Shown piece after piece: positions 3,872 to 17,901 of a DNA stretch of 25,539 nucleotides. Position 1 is the first letter of the stretch, and each line of letters begins with the position of its first letter. The stretch is from positions 1-25,539 of the IMG/VR virus record IMGVR_UViG_3300035698_035401. One strand, given 5' to 3'. The stretch is from a virus. The notes under the pieces were generated by a model. That model did no database searches. It was not told the origin of the DNA and worked only from the letters and a program-made list of their open reading frames with translations. A program made the position numbers and the translations under genes.

Positions 3872-6800
3872 ATGTCCTGGGCACTATTCGATAAAATCAG
3901 AGCATACTCCAAGTATGCCGAACTGTTCCGCCACGAGAATCTTTTCCAGGACCAAACGAACCTGGCGAGGCTCACGGCCGCTGGCGAATTCGTCAACTTC
4001 CAGCGACAAAATAGTCTCATTGACCAGACCAATCTGCAGATCAACCGCCTAGAGCGGTATAAAGACTTTGACCAAATGGATGAGGTCGGTGAGATTACTA
4101 TGTCTCTCGACTTATACGCCGACGAAGGCGCCCTGATCGATACCGAGACCAAGCATGCGGTAATGGTTAAGTCCCCAGATCGTCACGTCAAAGAAATAAT
4201 TGAGGATTTCCTCTATACGAAGCTGAACATTGACAAAGAATTATGGTCTTGGATTCGGTATCTGGTCAAGTATGGCGATCTACCCTGCGAAATAATTGTA
4301 GACCATAAGCGGACGGGCGTTGCGTCCCTTAAGTTTATGAATGTTTATAATTTCGTACGCTTGGAAACAAAGCACGGCGATCTTATTGGATTCTTCTATC
4401 AGGACCAATTCGCCAATGCCCCCGTTTTCTTCCACCCCTGGCAGATTATGCACTGCCGGCTTCAGTCGCTCGAGAGCATCTATAACCCGTACGGACGCGC
4501 AATATTAGACGGCGCCAGGAAGCATTTCAAACAACTCCGGCTGATGGAAGATGCGGCTCTGATCTACCGACTGTGCGTTAGAGGAGACTCCAAAGTATGG
4601 ACTCCTGCAGGGCATAAAGAGATTAAGGATCTTGTTGTTGGAGATCAAGTCTATAGCTATACGCCGGACGGTCAACTTAAAAAAACCAACATAACGTACC
4701 AGAAGAATAATGGCGTAGATCGTATTTACCGGGTTTTCTCGCAGCATCGTGAAATTTATGCCAATGCTACACACCCCATCTTGGTTGTTGATCCTTATCA
4801 AAAGAATGGCAAATGGCATCATGATAGGTTGAAGTATGTTGATGTTAAAGACCTGAAAACAAGAGAAAATTGTACCTCTGGCTCAAGATATATTCATAAA
4901 TTTGTGTTGCCGCGCATGGCCGAGAATACTGAGTATGTAAACCTGAACTTCCCGCAAATCAAACAGTACGCTCGTTTGCCTGAATTAGTTGGCGTATCTC
5001 TTGGGGCATATGATGCCAAGCAAAATGGTTTGAACACACGTACCGCAAATAGATTTTTAAGTGAAGGAAAATGGACCAAAAAATCGGTCGCGATAAACAT
5101 TTGTGAATCTGCCGAAGTAGAGTCGGAATTGGAGGTTCGAAATTGCTGGGCCTATGATGCCAAACACGATGAAGTGTATGAATATACACTTCCGCAGGCT
5201 GCAGATGAAGATTTTGCGCGTTGGTTTGGGTTTATGCTTGGCGATGGATTCGTGTCAGAACGATCATACAGCGGCGGTACTGTTAGTGAAGTTGGATTTG
5301 CGTGTGGGGATGATGAGGCCACAAACGAAGAATATAGAGAGCTATTTGAACGATATGTTGGTAGTCATTTAAAATTCGGCGGCGACAATGATTATAGGTA
5401 CGGCAGATACTCAGTTTATTCAAAGCCATTTGTTAAATTTATGCAATTAAATGGGTTCATTCCCGGCGCACACAATAAACGAATCCCAGAGTGGGTTTAT
5501 CGTTCGCCTCGTTCGGTGCAAAAAGCTCTTATCGATGGGTATATTAATTCTGACGGTTGGCGCCGAATGTACAAAAATGGTAAAACAGAAGGACAAGAAG
5601 TCGAATGCTGCAATAAGCAACTGCTTGAAGATCTGAAAGAACTCATTCATCAAATCGGTTGGAATGTTGGTTTGATAAGAAAGGTTGAAAAGCCTGGTGG
5701 CCATATAATCGATCAGACTACAGGCCGAGTGATGCCGGCAACAATAAGTTGGGCTCTTTATTTCACGAAGGAGCAAGCGCCACAATCTGAGAATATTGTT
5801 GGCGTAGAGGAAGTTAAAGCCGCTGAGGTCTACGACATCGGAGTGGAATCGGATGAACATAATTTTGTTGTTAATGGCATACCCACTCACAACACTAGGG
5901 CCCCTGAAAAGCGTGTGTTTACTATTCCGGTCGGTAATATCCCCACCCATGAGGTACCCGGATATATTAACCAGATCGCTAGGACTTTCAAGAAGCACCA
6001 ATTCATTGACCCATCCACCGGTGATGTGAACGAACGTTGGTCGCCACTGATTCAGGAAGATGACTTCTGGATGCCCCAGCGCCAGGATGGAACTGGCCCG
6101 TCGGTCGATACCCTCCCCGGCGCCGAGAACCTTGACCAAATTGCCGACATTGAATACTTCAAGAAAAAGATGTGTTCAGCCCTAAAAATTCCGTTCAGTC
6201 GTGTCGGGATTGGTGACCAACAGGAGTCTGACTCGAAGCCTCTTTCGCAGTCGGCCCCGGAATTCGCCAAAGCTATCCAGCGTGTCCAACGCGAAATCGC
6301 AATTGGTCTGAAGAAGGCAATAATTGTCCATCTCATCTTACATGGAATGAACGAGGAACAAATCCGCAATTTCGATATTTATATGACGGCTTCGTCGGCC
6401 ATCGACGACCTCTATAGGATCGAGACTTGGGCCTCAAGAGCGGACGTCATTGACAGCCTCAAGGGCACAGAAATGTTCCCCGACCGCTGGATCCTGCGTC
6501 GTTTCACAGACCTTACCGACGACGAAATTGATGAAATGGAAGAAGAAAAACGGATCGATCTTGAAATGCAGCGCCTGCTCGGTGGCGGGGATATGATGGG
6601 CGGCATGGGCGGCGGCATGGGCGGCACTATGGGCGGCCTTGGCGGGGGTCTTGGTGGCCTTGGTGGTGCCCCCGGCGGCGAAATGCCTATGGGTGGCGGT
6701 ATGCCTGGCGGCGAAATGCCAGGAGGACCCCCTATGGGTGGTATGCCGCCGGTGGAGCATCGAAATCTCTCCGGGATGGTCCTCAAGGAGGACCGATCCG

Positions 6801-7105
6801 AGCTATTGGAACGTGAGAAAATACGCTCCAAAGCCAAGTTGCATAAGCAGCTGAGGGAAAGCAACCAGTACATCTACCTATTGAACAATAATGAGCTCGA
6901 CGGCATCAAGCCCCCACATACACCCCGGATTGATTCGCCCGTTAGCGATACTGATAAAAACGCTGTTATTGTTGAGAATGCAAAAGTATTTTCGGGGACC
7001 GATCAGGTTGATGGATGGCCGGATGAAACCGTTAAGGGCCTAATAGTCCTGACGGAAGACCAAGGCGAAGAAGAAGTAACTGCCGAAGATTTGCCGTCCA
7101 AGTAA
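3872..7105 (+). CDS. Portal vertex protein (gp20-like) with in-frame intein
   Basis: The 1077-residue precursor forms the dodecameric ring through which DNA enters the head and to which terminase and neck attach. After removal of the 440-residue intein it would be 637 residues, against about 520 for T4 gp20. The extein junction is ...ALIYRL | TRAPEKRVFTIPVGNIP..., the highly conserved gp20 segment IYRITRAPERRVF. Downstream EDDFWMPQR, LPGAENLDQIADIEYFKKKM and the helix LKIPFSRV are also typical gp20. Residues 904-960 are a Gly/Met-rich tract absent from T4 gp20, followed by a basic coiled region and an acidic tail. AAGGTGGCAC precedes the chosen ATG. It heads the plus-strand head cassette. The call is very secure; the function of the Gly/Met tract is unknown. 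Confidence 0.95.
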   Translation: MSWALFDKIRAYSKYAELFRHENLFQDQTNLARLTAAGEFVNFQRQNSLIDQTNLQINRLERYKDFDQMDEVGEITMSLDLYADEGALIDTETKHAVMVKSPDRHVKEIIEDFLYTKLNIDKELWSWIRYLVKYGDLPCEIIVDHKRTGVASLKFMNVYNFVRLETKHGDLIGFFYQDQFANAPVFFHPWQIMHCRLQSLESIYNPYGRAILDGARKHFKQLRLMEDAALIYRLCVRGDSKVWTPAGHKEIKDLVVGDQVYSYTPDGQLKKTNITYQKNNGVDRIYRVFSQHREIYANATHPILVVDPYQKNGKWHHDRLKYVDVKDLKTRENCTSGSRYIHKFVLPRMAENTEYVNLNFPQIKQYARLPELVGVSLGAYDAKQNGLNTRTANRFLSEGKWTKKSVAINICESAEVESELEVRNCWAYDAKHDEVYEYTLPQAADEDFARWFGFMLGDGFVSERSYSGGTVSEVGFACGDDEATNEEYRELFERYVGSHLKFGGDNDYRYGRYSVYSKPFVKFMQLNGFIPGAHNKRIPEWVYRSPRSVQKALIDGYINSDGWRRMYKNGKTEGQEVECCNKQLLEDLKELIHQIGWNVGLIRKVEKPGGHIIDQTTGRVMPATISWALYFTKEQAPQSENIVGVEEVKAAEVYDIGVESDEHNFVVNGIPTHNTRAPEKRVFTIPVGNIPTHEVPGYINQIARTFKKHQFIDPSTGDVNERWSPLIQEDDFWMPQRQDGTGPSVDTLPGAENLDQIADIEYFKKKMCSALKIPFSRVGIGDQQESDSKPLSQSAPEFAKAIQRVQREIAIGLKKAIIVHLILHGMNEEQIRNFDIYMTASSAIDDLYRIETWASRADVIDSLKGTEMFPDRWILRRFTDLTDDEIDEMEEEKRIDLEMQRLLGGGDMMGGMGGGMGGTMGGLGGGLGGLGGAPGGEMPMGGGMPGGEMPGGPPMGGMPPVEHRNLSGMVLKEDRSELLEREKIRSKAKLHKQLRESNQYIYLLNNNELDGIKPPHTPRIDSPVSDTDKNAVIVENAKVFSGTDQVDGWPDETVKGLIVLTEDQGEEEVTAEDLPSK
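4574..5893 (+). mobile_element. Full-length intein with LAGLIDADG (DOD) homing endonuclease in the portal
   Basis: 440 residues. Block A begins at Cys1: CVRGDSKVWTPAGHKEIKDL then GDQVYSY. Block B is around ATHPILVV. Two DOD motifs are visible: WFGFMLGDGF (precursor residues 451-460) and ALIDGYINSDGW (552-563), about 100 residues apart, the normal spacing of a two-motif endonuclease. Block F is VYDIGVESDEHNFVVNG and block G is THN followed by Thr. All residues needed for splicing are present (Cys1, B-block His, penultimate His, Asn, +1 Thr). The DNA is more AT-rich than the flanking extein, which supports later acquisition. Confidence 0.95.
6581..6750 (+). repeat. Gly/Met-rich low-complexity tract in the portal gene
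   Basis: Short degenerate repeats of GGC/GGT and ATG encode GGMGG, GGLGG and GGEMP units (portal residues 904-960). A similar Met/Gly tract occurs in the next gene. Confidence 0.85.
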
Positions 7106-16585: not shown

Positions 16586-17347
16586 ATGGCTGAGCGCCAA
16601 CTGCATGAGCTGCTTGCTGTGGAAAAGGATCTGCAGGGGCAGGCGAACGAGACCCTCGCGGAAACCGCAAAGGTATTCGACCGCAAGGAACTTTTTAAGG
16701 GCGGCGTCCGCTCTTATCGCCCCTTCGACGCGAAGGACGAGCACCTCGCGAAGGATGAATATGAGGAAGTCGGCACGACCGTCGAGAAGCGCCTCGACTA
16801 CACCGGCAAGCGCCTCGCGAAGTACTGGGACGCCGTTCTCCAGAAGGAGAAGACGAACCAGACGGCTAGCGCCGATATCGTAGTCAACGGCGAGACGATT
16901 GCCGAGGCTGTCCCGGCCACGATGCTGCTCGGCCTCGAGACCAAGCTGCGGCAGTTCCGCGAAGCGATCAAGGCCATGCCTACCCTCGACGTGAAGACGA
17001 AGTGGGAAGCGGCTGACGGCCAGATCGATGTCCAGGTCACTTCGCATGACGACGTGCAGTTCAAGACCGAGAAGAAGACGAAGCCCGTAGTCCTTTATGA
17101 GGCCGTAGTCAAGGATGGCGTTGGCATCCCGGCCAACGTGAAGGAAGCGATCGAGAACATCAACATCGGCAAGTACACGACCAAGATCTTCAGCAGCGCC
17201 GTGACTTCCAGTCGCGCCGCCGAGGTCCTTGGTCGCACCGACGAGCTGATACGCGCTGTGAAGAAGGCCCGCCAGCGCGCCAACAAGGCCCCGATCCAGA
17301 AGGGCAACCTTGGTGCCAACATCTTCAAGTACATCTTGAAGCGTTAA
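16586..17347 (+). CDS. Conserved phage protein of unknown function, probably highly expressed
   Basis: 253 residues. The opening LHELLAVEKDLQGQANETLAET, the central VPATMLLGLETKLRQFREAI and the closing RTDELIRAVKKARQRAN recall a family of conserved proteins found in many tailed phages and some bacterial genomes. I know of no assigned function. It is helix-rich with an acidic N-terminal half and a basic C-terminal helix, and no catalytic motif is evident. Third-position C/G bias is as strong as in the capsid gene. It has its own GTATTTAA motif and a good AGGAGA site, so abundant expression is likely. It precedes the structured RNA and tRNA region. Confidence 0.8.
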   Translation: MAERQLHELLAVEKDLQGQANETLAETAKVFDRKELFKGGVRSYRPFDAKDEHLAKDEYEEVGTTVEKRLDYTGKRLAKYWDAVLQKEKTNQTASADIVVNGETIAEAVPATMLLGLETKLRQFREAIKAMPTLDVKTKWEAADGQIDVQVTSHDDVQFKTEKKTKPVVLYEAVVKDGVGIPANVKEAIENINIGKYTTKIFSSAVTSSRAAEVLGRTDELIRAVKKARQRANKAPIQKGNLGANIFKYILKR

Positions 17348-17370
17348 TCATTCGGTGTGGGTCGGGCTGT

Positions 17371-17661
17371 GCTGGGTCGTAAGGTCCAGCCGGCGACGAC
17401 TGCGGCTCGAGCTCAGGGCGCGGGCCGCGGCCGCCAGCTCGGAAGCATTTCCCTTCCGAGCACTTCATAGTAAACTTCCGGCTCGGTTCGCACCACCATT
17501 CTCTGAGCAAACTCATCGTCAGTTGTTGATGTCCCACTCGGGACGCCGCCCAGTTAGGCGGTCCGGCTTATTACCGGTTGTTCCGAGCTCATCGTCCGTA
17601 CTATTGCTCAGTCAGCCTTATCCCCCCGGAGGTAATAGTCCCACCGGTCACTTCCCCTAAC
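17371..17661 (+). ncRNA. Gene-free, highly structured RNA region upstream of the split tRNA
   Basis: No coding potential is convincing between 17348 and 17921. Hairpins read by eye: 17371-17390 (8 bp with a GTAA tetraloop, including G-U pairs); 17437-17461 (9 bp GCTCGGAAG/CTTCCGAGC, 7-nt loop); 17531-17544 (GTCCC/GGGAC); 17545-17562 (GCCGCC/GGCGGT); 17563-17577 (CCGG/CCGG). ACTATT near 17600 can pair with AATAGT near 17635. The density of GC hairpins over about 290 bases suggests a folded RNA. It does not match RNase P RNA, a one-piece tmRNA or a group I intron core that I can recognise. Confidence 0.5.
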
Positions 17662-17746
17662 TGGTCCAGACGCGGGTTCGAGTCCCGCCCGCCCCTCCAT
17701 TACATTCTCAACGCATGGGGCGGTAGTTCAGTGGCAGAACAGGCGA
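17662..17746 (+). tRNA. Split, permuted tRNA-Gly-like element (3' half then 5' half)
   Basis: 17662-17699 is a 3' half: variable loop CAGAC, T-stem GCGGG/CCCGC with loop TTCGAGT, acceptor strand CCGCCCC, U73 and encoded CCA. After 17 nt, 17717-17746 is a 5' half: acceptor strand GGGGCGG, TA, D-arm GTTC/GAAC with loop AGTGGCA, then GGCGA. The two acceptor strands pair perfectly (7 of 7). Tertiary-contact positions T8, A14, G15, G18, G19, C48, T55 and C56 are all present across the halves. U73 is typical of tRNA-Gly. Neither half has its normal partner in the normal order. It could be a circularly permuted tRNA, a two-piece RNA or a rearranged remnant. Confidence 0.6.
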
Positions 17747-17794
17747 ATAAAAATGAGGGAACGATGCGGAACACGACATTACTGACATAAAATT

Positions 17795-17866
17795 TGCACC
17801 GTAGCTCAGTGGTAGAGCAACAGGCTTCTAACCTGTGGGTCACTGGTTCAAATCCAGTCCTTGCAA
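17795..17866 (+). tRNA. tRNA-Arg (anticodon TCT), imperfect acceptor stem
   Basis: Cloverleaf: D-arm GCTC/GAGC, anticodon stem ACAGG/CCTGT with loop CTTCTAA (anticodon TCT, reading AGA), variable GGGTC, T-arm ACTGG/CCAGT with loop TTCAAAT. The acceptor TGCACCG pairs with CCTTGCA except at positions 5-68 (C.T) and 6-67 (C.C). CCA is not encoded. It may be functional or slightly decayed. Confidence 0.8.
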
Positions 17867-17870
17867 AACC

Positions 17871-17901
17871 GGGGGGCGGAGAAGGATACTCTCCGCCCTC
17901 C
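17871..17901 (+). terminator. 12-bp GC-rich hairpin after tRNA-Arg
   Basis: GGGGGGCGGAGA pairs with TCTCCGCCCTCC (one G-U) around a 7-nt loop. No T-run follows. It probably ends or protects the tRNA transcript. Its 12 bp plus 7-nt loop, followed by ACC, also equals the geometry of a tRNA acceptor/T-arm minihelix. Confidence 0.6.

Follow-up and report, generated by a model that had tools for sequence, protein, structure and literature searches.

The window analysed here is a whole stretch of 25,539 nucleotides, the 25.5-kb record of a T4-like phage with Gp23 capsid and Gp20 portal proteins. At positions 17662-17746, a sequence-only reading had described two halves of a tRNA-Gly in permuted order, and the question raised by this locus is whether a tRNA is encoded there or whether the two halves belong to another RNA. 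The analyses described below indicate that these positions are one member of a larger conserved RNA element that keeps the same protein-coding gene beside it, and not a lone tRNA-Gly gene.

Layout of the locus

All features discussed here lie on the plus strand. The 3' half of the tRNA-like domain (17662..17699) does lie upstream of the 5' half (17717..17746), as first described, with every part in place in the sequence; both halves are also supported by a covariance model and by covariation. The 3' half consists of the 3' strand of the anticodon stem (TGGTC, 17662-17666), the variable loop (CAGAC, 17667-17671), the T-arm (GCGGG-TTCGAGT-CCCGC, 17672-17688), the 3' strand of the acceptor stem (CCGCCCC, 17689-17695), U73 (17696) and an encoded CCA (17697-17699). 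A 17-nt spacer (17700-17716), which forms the loop capping the acceptor stem, separates the CCA from the 5' half, made of the acceptor 5' strand (GGGGCGG, 17717-17723), UA at the U8A9 positions (17724-17725), the D-arm (GTTC-AGTGGCA-GAAC, 17726-17740), A26 and the anticodon-stem 5' strand (GGCGA, 17742-17746). The acceptor stem is perfect across the two halves (7/7 pairs) and the candidate anticodon stem GGCGA/TGGTC pairs at 4/5 positions, including one G-U, so that both of the earlier pairing counts hold. Neither ARAGORN nor Rfam called a tRNA at 17662-17746, and Rfam with relaxed limits returned for these halves only sub-threshold matches, to the tRNA-mimic families YrlA and permuted tmRNA. 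In a constrained fold, the anticodon stem continues through an internal loop into a further helix, formed in the window by UUCCC (17652..17656) and GGGAA (17757..17761).

The gene located upstream (16586..17347) encodes a 253-aa protein matching DUF7873 (PF25283; Pfam 225 bits, E 1.2e-66, gathering score 27), the constant protein-coding neighbour of the RNA element. The non-coding interval between this gene and the cassette (17348..17661) makes up the 5' part of the element, in which inspection revealed AAACUC-type motifs and several putative hairpins. Downstream of the cassette, ARAGORN and Rfam (64.6 bits) recognised a tRNA-Arg(UCU)-like unit in canonical order (17794..17867), with two acceptor mismatches, flagged as such, and no CCA. 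It is followed by a terminal hairpin (17871..17901), GGGGGGCGGAGA-AGGAUAC-UCUCCGCCCUCC, whose loop contains GGA at 17884-17886. Elsewhere in the window (3872-7105 and 19-1443), we noted a portal gene with an intein, and a first open reading frame that seems to encode an intein end and, after it, a terminase-like protein.

Association of the cassette with DUF7873

A first scan for this layout in 80 capsid-related viral loci detected a tandem pair of cassettes in a single phage lineage (L081/L082), and Vibrio phage D517, chosen for its DUF7873 homologue, carried one cassette. DUF7873 lies directly 5' of the cassette in the window, in L081/L082 and in D517 alike. In reference phages with DUF7873, a few hundred bases on the 3' side of the gene are mostly left unannotated, as a gap resembling 17348..17661 of the window, and 10/12 of these phages carried one or two cassettes. 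The sample was enlarged with 80 more viral loci and with bacterial loci from Myxococcota and Spirochaetota. The scan placed a cassette at most 900 nt 3' of DUF7873 in 109/119 loci, from phages of Vibrio, Rhizobium, Klebsiella, Arthrobacter, Gordonia, Rhodococcus and cyanobacteria, and from genomes of Myxococcota and Spirochaetota. Among the ten loci missed, two are truncated and five were recovered with the covariance model, either inside the 900 nt, where the cassette is also visible by eye (L124 and L143), or further out (L098, L163 and L165). Strict matches, defined by 7/7 acceptor, 5/5 T and 4/4 D pairs with no requirement on the anticodon stem, were obtained in 64/109 loci, compared with 0/1090 dinucleotide shuffles, 0/1902 control windows and 1/113 upstream regions. 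The capsid-related loci L003-L080 contained neither DUF7873 (0/78) nor, in their windows, any strict cassette, and a DNA similarity search of phage records returned only ordinary tRNAs among the matches listed.

The other neighbouring genes vary among loci, and DUF7873 and the RNA therefore form the constant module. From this gene order, we consider it rather probable that the two form a ribonucleoprotein. Homologues of DUF7873 occur in phages and bacteria; a single-protein scan of viral contigs gave no match and an alignment query gave 285. Its structure was predicted with a mean pLDDT of 90, and no clear relative was recovered among solved structures by sequence or by fold: the best Foldseek match against the PDB had E 0.1, BFVD gave nothing at E<=0.001, and the best VIA-align match (Z 9.1 to 3kdq, a protein of unknown function, with an rmsd of 7.4 over 146 residues) is too weak to use. 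PHROGs and NCBIfam contained no match for DUF7873. A literature search for which subscription journals and preprints were mostly outside reach found nothing on DUF7873 or on such an RNA, and hence is not proof of absence.

Several loci have further peculiarities. Four Myxococcota genomes (G223, G252, G083 and G284) carry on another contig a second, more divergent DUF7873 gene (~235 bits). In a Microcoleus phage (L098), an IscB-like RRXRR/HNH gene is located between DUF7873 and a permuted cassette (4124-5401, 5770-5837), an arrangement suggestive of its insertion into the element. A tmRNA (Rfam 89 bits) lies near the DUF7873 element of Gordonia phage Phendrix (L093, 1063-1591), and Rhizobium phage RHph_Y65 (W03) encodes a TROVE (Ro60-like) protein (139762-140505) ~6 kb from its DUF7873 element. 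A tRNA-rich stretch of L033 (19026-19407), with no DUF7873 on the DNA examined, also contains two cassettes that look permuted (43.5 and 39.4 bits); this pair could be unusual tandem tRNAs.

Covarying stems and the terminal contact

The fold was examined on an alignment of 33 cassettes, from which a covariance model was also built, the window being left out of both. This model recovered the window cassette with 58.4 bits (E=1.9e-16), well outside what chance would produce, the next match in the window being 41 bits lower. Since the model also scores closely spaced ordinary tRNAs or tmRNA/tRNA neighbours (36 bits in L093), it should be used only together with the DUF7873 context. In the 33 aligned cassettes, 97.4% of the base-pair cells were paired, against 58.0% in shuffled alignments, and sliding the register destroyed this signal. 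Double changes were observed at 20/21 pairs, with a covariation score of 1.038 versus 0.221, and all four stems covary, including the anticodon stem. Acceptor pairing alone proves little because this stem was used for selection; the variety of the paired acceptor sequences (64 distinct strands among 79 cassettes) does not follow from that selection. The D-stem pairs are kept in 40-50 of 50 cassettes, and the acceptor pairs vary at every position. T54, T55 and C56 are invariant and A58 is present in 49/50 cassettes; the same holds for C74 (49/50), followed by C75 (42/50) and A76 (39/50), and NCCA is encoded in 59/79 unique cassettes. Acceptor pairs and discriminator change between close relatives (L140 and L149, L118 and L122) while the fold is kept; selection therefore acts on the fold and not on one amino-acid identity. 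The conservation of both halves, which the sequence-only reading had suggested looking for, was thus recovered in related loci, which keep the permuted layout, and the cassette does not resemble a remnant of two tRNA-Gly genes; on covariation and conservation, we rejected the decay of two tandem tRNA genes.

On the anticodon side, all five pairs of the stem form in 59/117 cassettes, a count that may be inflated as the relaxed scan gave minor weight to this pairing, compared with 2.9% in a cross-partner null. Among these 59, U33 is present in 21 (36%) and a purine at position 37 in 38. The helix extending the stem reached a score of 6 in 65% of the elements, versus 27% in the cross-partner null. 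The compared sequences thus describe one or two permuted tRNA-like domains with acceptor, D, T and anticodon stems and the canonical D- and T-loop residues, and with no anticodon loop. On this comparative evidence, it is almost certain that the element exists with the structure described.

The 3' end of the elements is a GC-rich hairpin of ~12 bp, whose loop is of the GGNNA type; in 23/90 elements the hairpin was not found or lacked GG. A run of U follows the hairpin in 23/64 cases, against a background of 5.6%, with none in the window, and the hairpin may double as a terminator in some carriers. The base after GG in the loop is Watson-Crick complementary to N73 in 47/67 elements (55/67 with G-U), the last cassette being taken in tandem elements. 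The expectation was 21.5 and the maximum 36 in 100,000 permutations (p<=1e-5), in a test made on the same loci in which the pairing had been noticed by eye. With one sequence per 50%-identity cluster, 20/26 were Watson-Crick, versus 8.8 expected. Nearest relatives were also compared in pairs: where N73 is different, the loop base changes as well in 13/14 pairs, three of these 14 being near-duplicates of each other, and where N73 is equal, it changes in 3/17. Mispairs remain in L147/L151 and L136. This covariation strongly suggests that the NCC following the acceptor stem pairs in cis with the GGN of the hairpin loop, in the window U73-C74-C75 (17696..17698) with GGA (17884-17886). The proposed contact resembles those of the P15 loop of RNase P RNA with RCCA and of the T-box UGGN with NCCA, in which GG(N) also pairs with N73-C74-C75, except that here a single RNA apparently contains both partners, with the tRNA-like end forming an internal loop. 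In RNase P, GGU pairs with N73-C74-C75 and A76 stacks on that helix (PMC11143913). A similar stacking may explain why A76 is kept in the cassettes; processing to a real CCA end may also occur, because A76 is retained in most phage copies though the GGN pairing needs none.

The space between the cassette and the terminal hairpin often contains another unit. In 26/66 single-cassette elements, a canonical-order tRNA lies at a fixed place before the hairpin; only three of the 26 end in CCA and two begin with G. As relatives hold tRNAs at that place, mostly without CCA, the unit at 17794-17867 of the window probably belongs to the RNA element instead of serving as a functional tRNA. Some other single elements keep only an anticodon-like hairpin; such stem-loops (with U33 and R37) were counted in 40/90 elements, versus 4.6% in shuffles, some of them being T-arms. 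Tandem elements, from bacteria, actinophages and Spirochaetota, contain two permuted domains separated by a conserved segment. In four of these (L193, L189, L192 and L196), runs of a YUNARR six-base repeat, such as CAAGCUCAGAUCUCAAGCUCAAGCUCAAC in L193, are located 5' of cassette A; the AAACUC strings at 17348-17661 of the window are related to these repeats.

Alternative readings and significance

Several known systems share features with this element. The sequence-only reading had seen in it a circularly permuted tRNA gene, whose anticodon-side ends would be spliced and acceptor ends trimmed to yield a functional tRNA-Gly. The order of the halves and the complete acceptor, D and T arms are indeed those of the permuted tRNA genes of red algae and archaea, with a perfect acceptor, an anticodon stem paired across the halves and canonical D and T loops. 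However, the U33/purine-37 signature of an anticodon loop is present on neither side, so that there is no loop to restore; the stem runs on through the internal loop and the helix into another RNA structure, the carriers are phages and bacteria, and the discriminator follows the hairpin loop. We thus rejected a spliced tRNA, which appears very improbable, and the glycine label, based on U73 and the D-arm only, has no anticodon to back it. The earlier interpretation is thus partly supported, for the order and conservation of the halves, and unsupported for their splicing. The main rival to a self-contained RNA is that RNase P cuts between the halves to give a two-piece RNA, trimmed to CCA and possibly aminoacylated, with DUF7873 as partner in the way SmpB is for tmRNA. 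The conservation of NCCA fits this possibility, RNase P signals are present in the canonical T-arm and the 7-bp acceptor, and Rfam gives a weak match to tmRNA_permuted. Two-piece tmRNAs from permuted genes (RF04321 and RF01850) similarly have the 3' half with CCA upstream of the 5' half and a spacer in between. Nevertheless, we consider such processing unlikely: the discriminator and the acceptor drift between close relatives, so that no amino-acid identity is fixed, the NCC varies together with a hairpin in cis, and most bacterial copies have no CCA. For tmRNA in particular, the window scores were 22.8 bits with RF04321 and 20.9 bits with RF01850 (gathering scores 47 and 84), and cassettes in 20 other loci gave no tmRNA match at the gathering score. 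The reduced D-arm and the alanine identity (G3-U70) of permuted tmRNA are replaced by a full canonical D-arm with an anticodon stem and, in the window, a G-C pair at 3-70, and we noticed no tag reading frame.

The YrlA Y RNAs (RF02553), tRNA-mimicking partners of the bacterial Ro60/Rsr, have the same permuted module, with T-arm, acceptor stem and D-arm on a longer stem, and weak Rfam matches were obtained in the window (35.4 bits) and in L109 (27.7 bits). These scores are far under the gathering score of 69, half of it in the window, and a TROVE protein was encoded in 1/14 carrier records searched (10 complete reference phages and 4 IMG/VR records, possibly fragments); moreover, YrlA differs from the element by the DUF7873 neighbour, the NCC/GGN pairing and the frequent presence of two modules. 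A YrlA-type RNA thus appears as improbable as a spliced tRNA. Both YrlA and permuted tmRNA were rejected on their weak Rfam matches and on the partner and D-arm tests. A bait for tRNA-targeting defence nucleases, with the inner tRNA or the lone anticodon hairpin as substrate and the permuted domain as scaffold, would account for the fixed-place tRNAs, mostly without CCA, and for the anticodon-like stem-loops kept by several other elements. This possibility seems doubtful, less likely than the two-piece RNA, as the inner tRNA or hairpin is absent from most tandem elements of bacteria and actinophages and the anticodons vary widely. The permuted exons, the opened anticodon loop and an S-like string seen by eye upstream (AAUAGUCC) evoke a circularly permuted group I intron in a tRNA gene. 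This reading is the least plausible of all and was rejected: Rfam gave no group I match up to E=10 in the window region or E=5 in one tandem locus, the flanks of compact copies (L081 and L189) look too short, and the guanosine-site pair is missing by eye.

We set the element apart as new because these membership tests failed, for permuted tRNA genes, permuted tmRNA, YrlA and group I introns, and because no Rfam match exceeded the cut-off; the RNA family is apparently undescribed, and common to very different phages and some bacteria. The reading that we favour, with roughly even chances of being correct, is a tRNA-mimicking noncoding RNA, locked on itself by the NCC/GGN contact and acting as a ribonucleoprotein with DUF7873. 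The RNA would be encoded directly 3' of DUF7873, with the permuted domain as its core, and the contact would be a loop-loop (pseudoknot) lock closing the RNA and occupying the end used by RNase P and other tRNA enzymes. It would thus be a self-contained tRNA mimic, not spliced into a decoding tRNA, and DUF7873 would bind it as a dedicated partner. Its likeliest use for a phage would lie in engaging, or drawing away, a host factor able to recognise the elbow and the acceptor end of tRNAs, such as processing, modification or tRNA-targeting defence enzymes, and we propose this mimic or decoy function tentatively. The broader view of a widespread, undescribed class of ribonucleoproteins, in which DUF7873 and an RNA with one or two permuted tRNA mimics, clamping its own NCC end by an RNase P-like GGN loop, would manipulate the tRNA machinery, has in our opinion slightly less than an even chance.

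Permuted tRNA mimicry has precedents in YrlA and two-piece tmRNA; the present combination of parts with this protein neighbour has none within the searches made. If the favoured reading is correct, DUF7873, a domain of unknown function, would gain an RNA partner, and a class of noncoding RNA missed by current annotation tools would be added, both for phages infecting many hosts and for bacterial chromosomes. It would also be a clear case of the tRNA fold being reused without its anticodon, in permuted form, and with a cis version of the contact between RNase P and the tRNA end.
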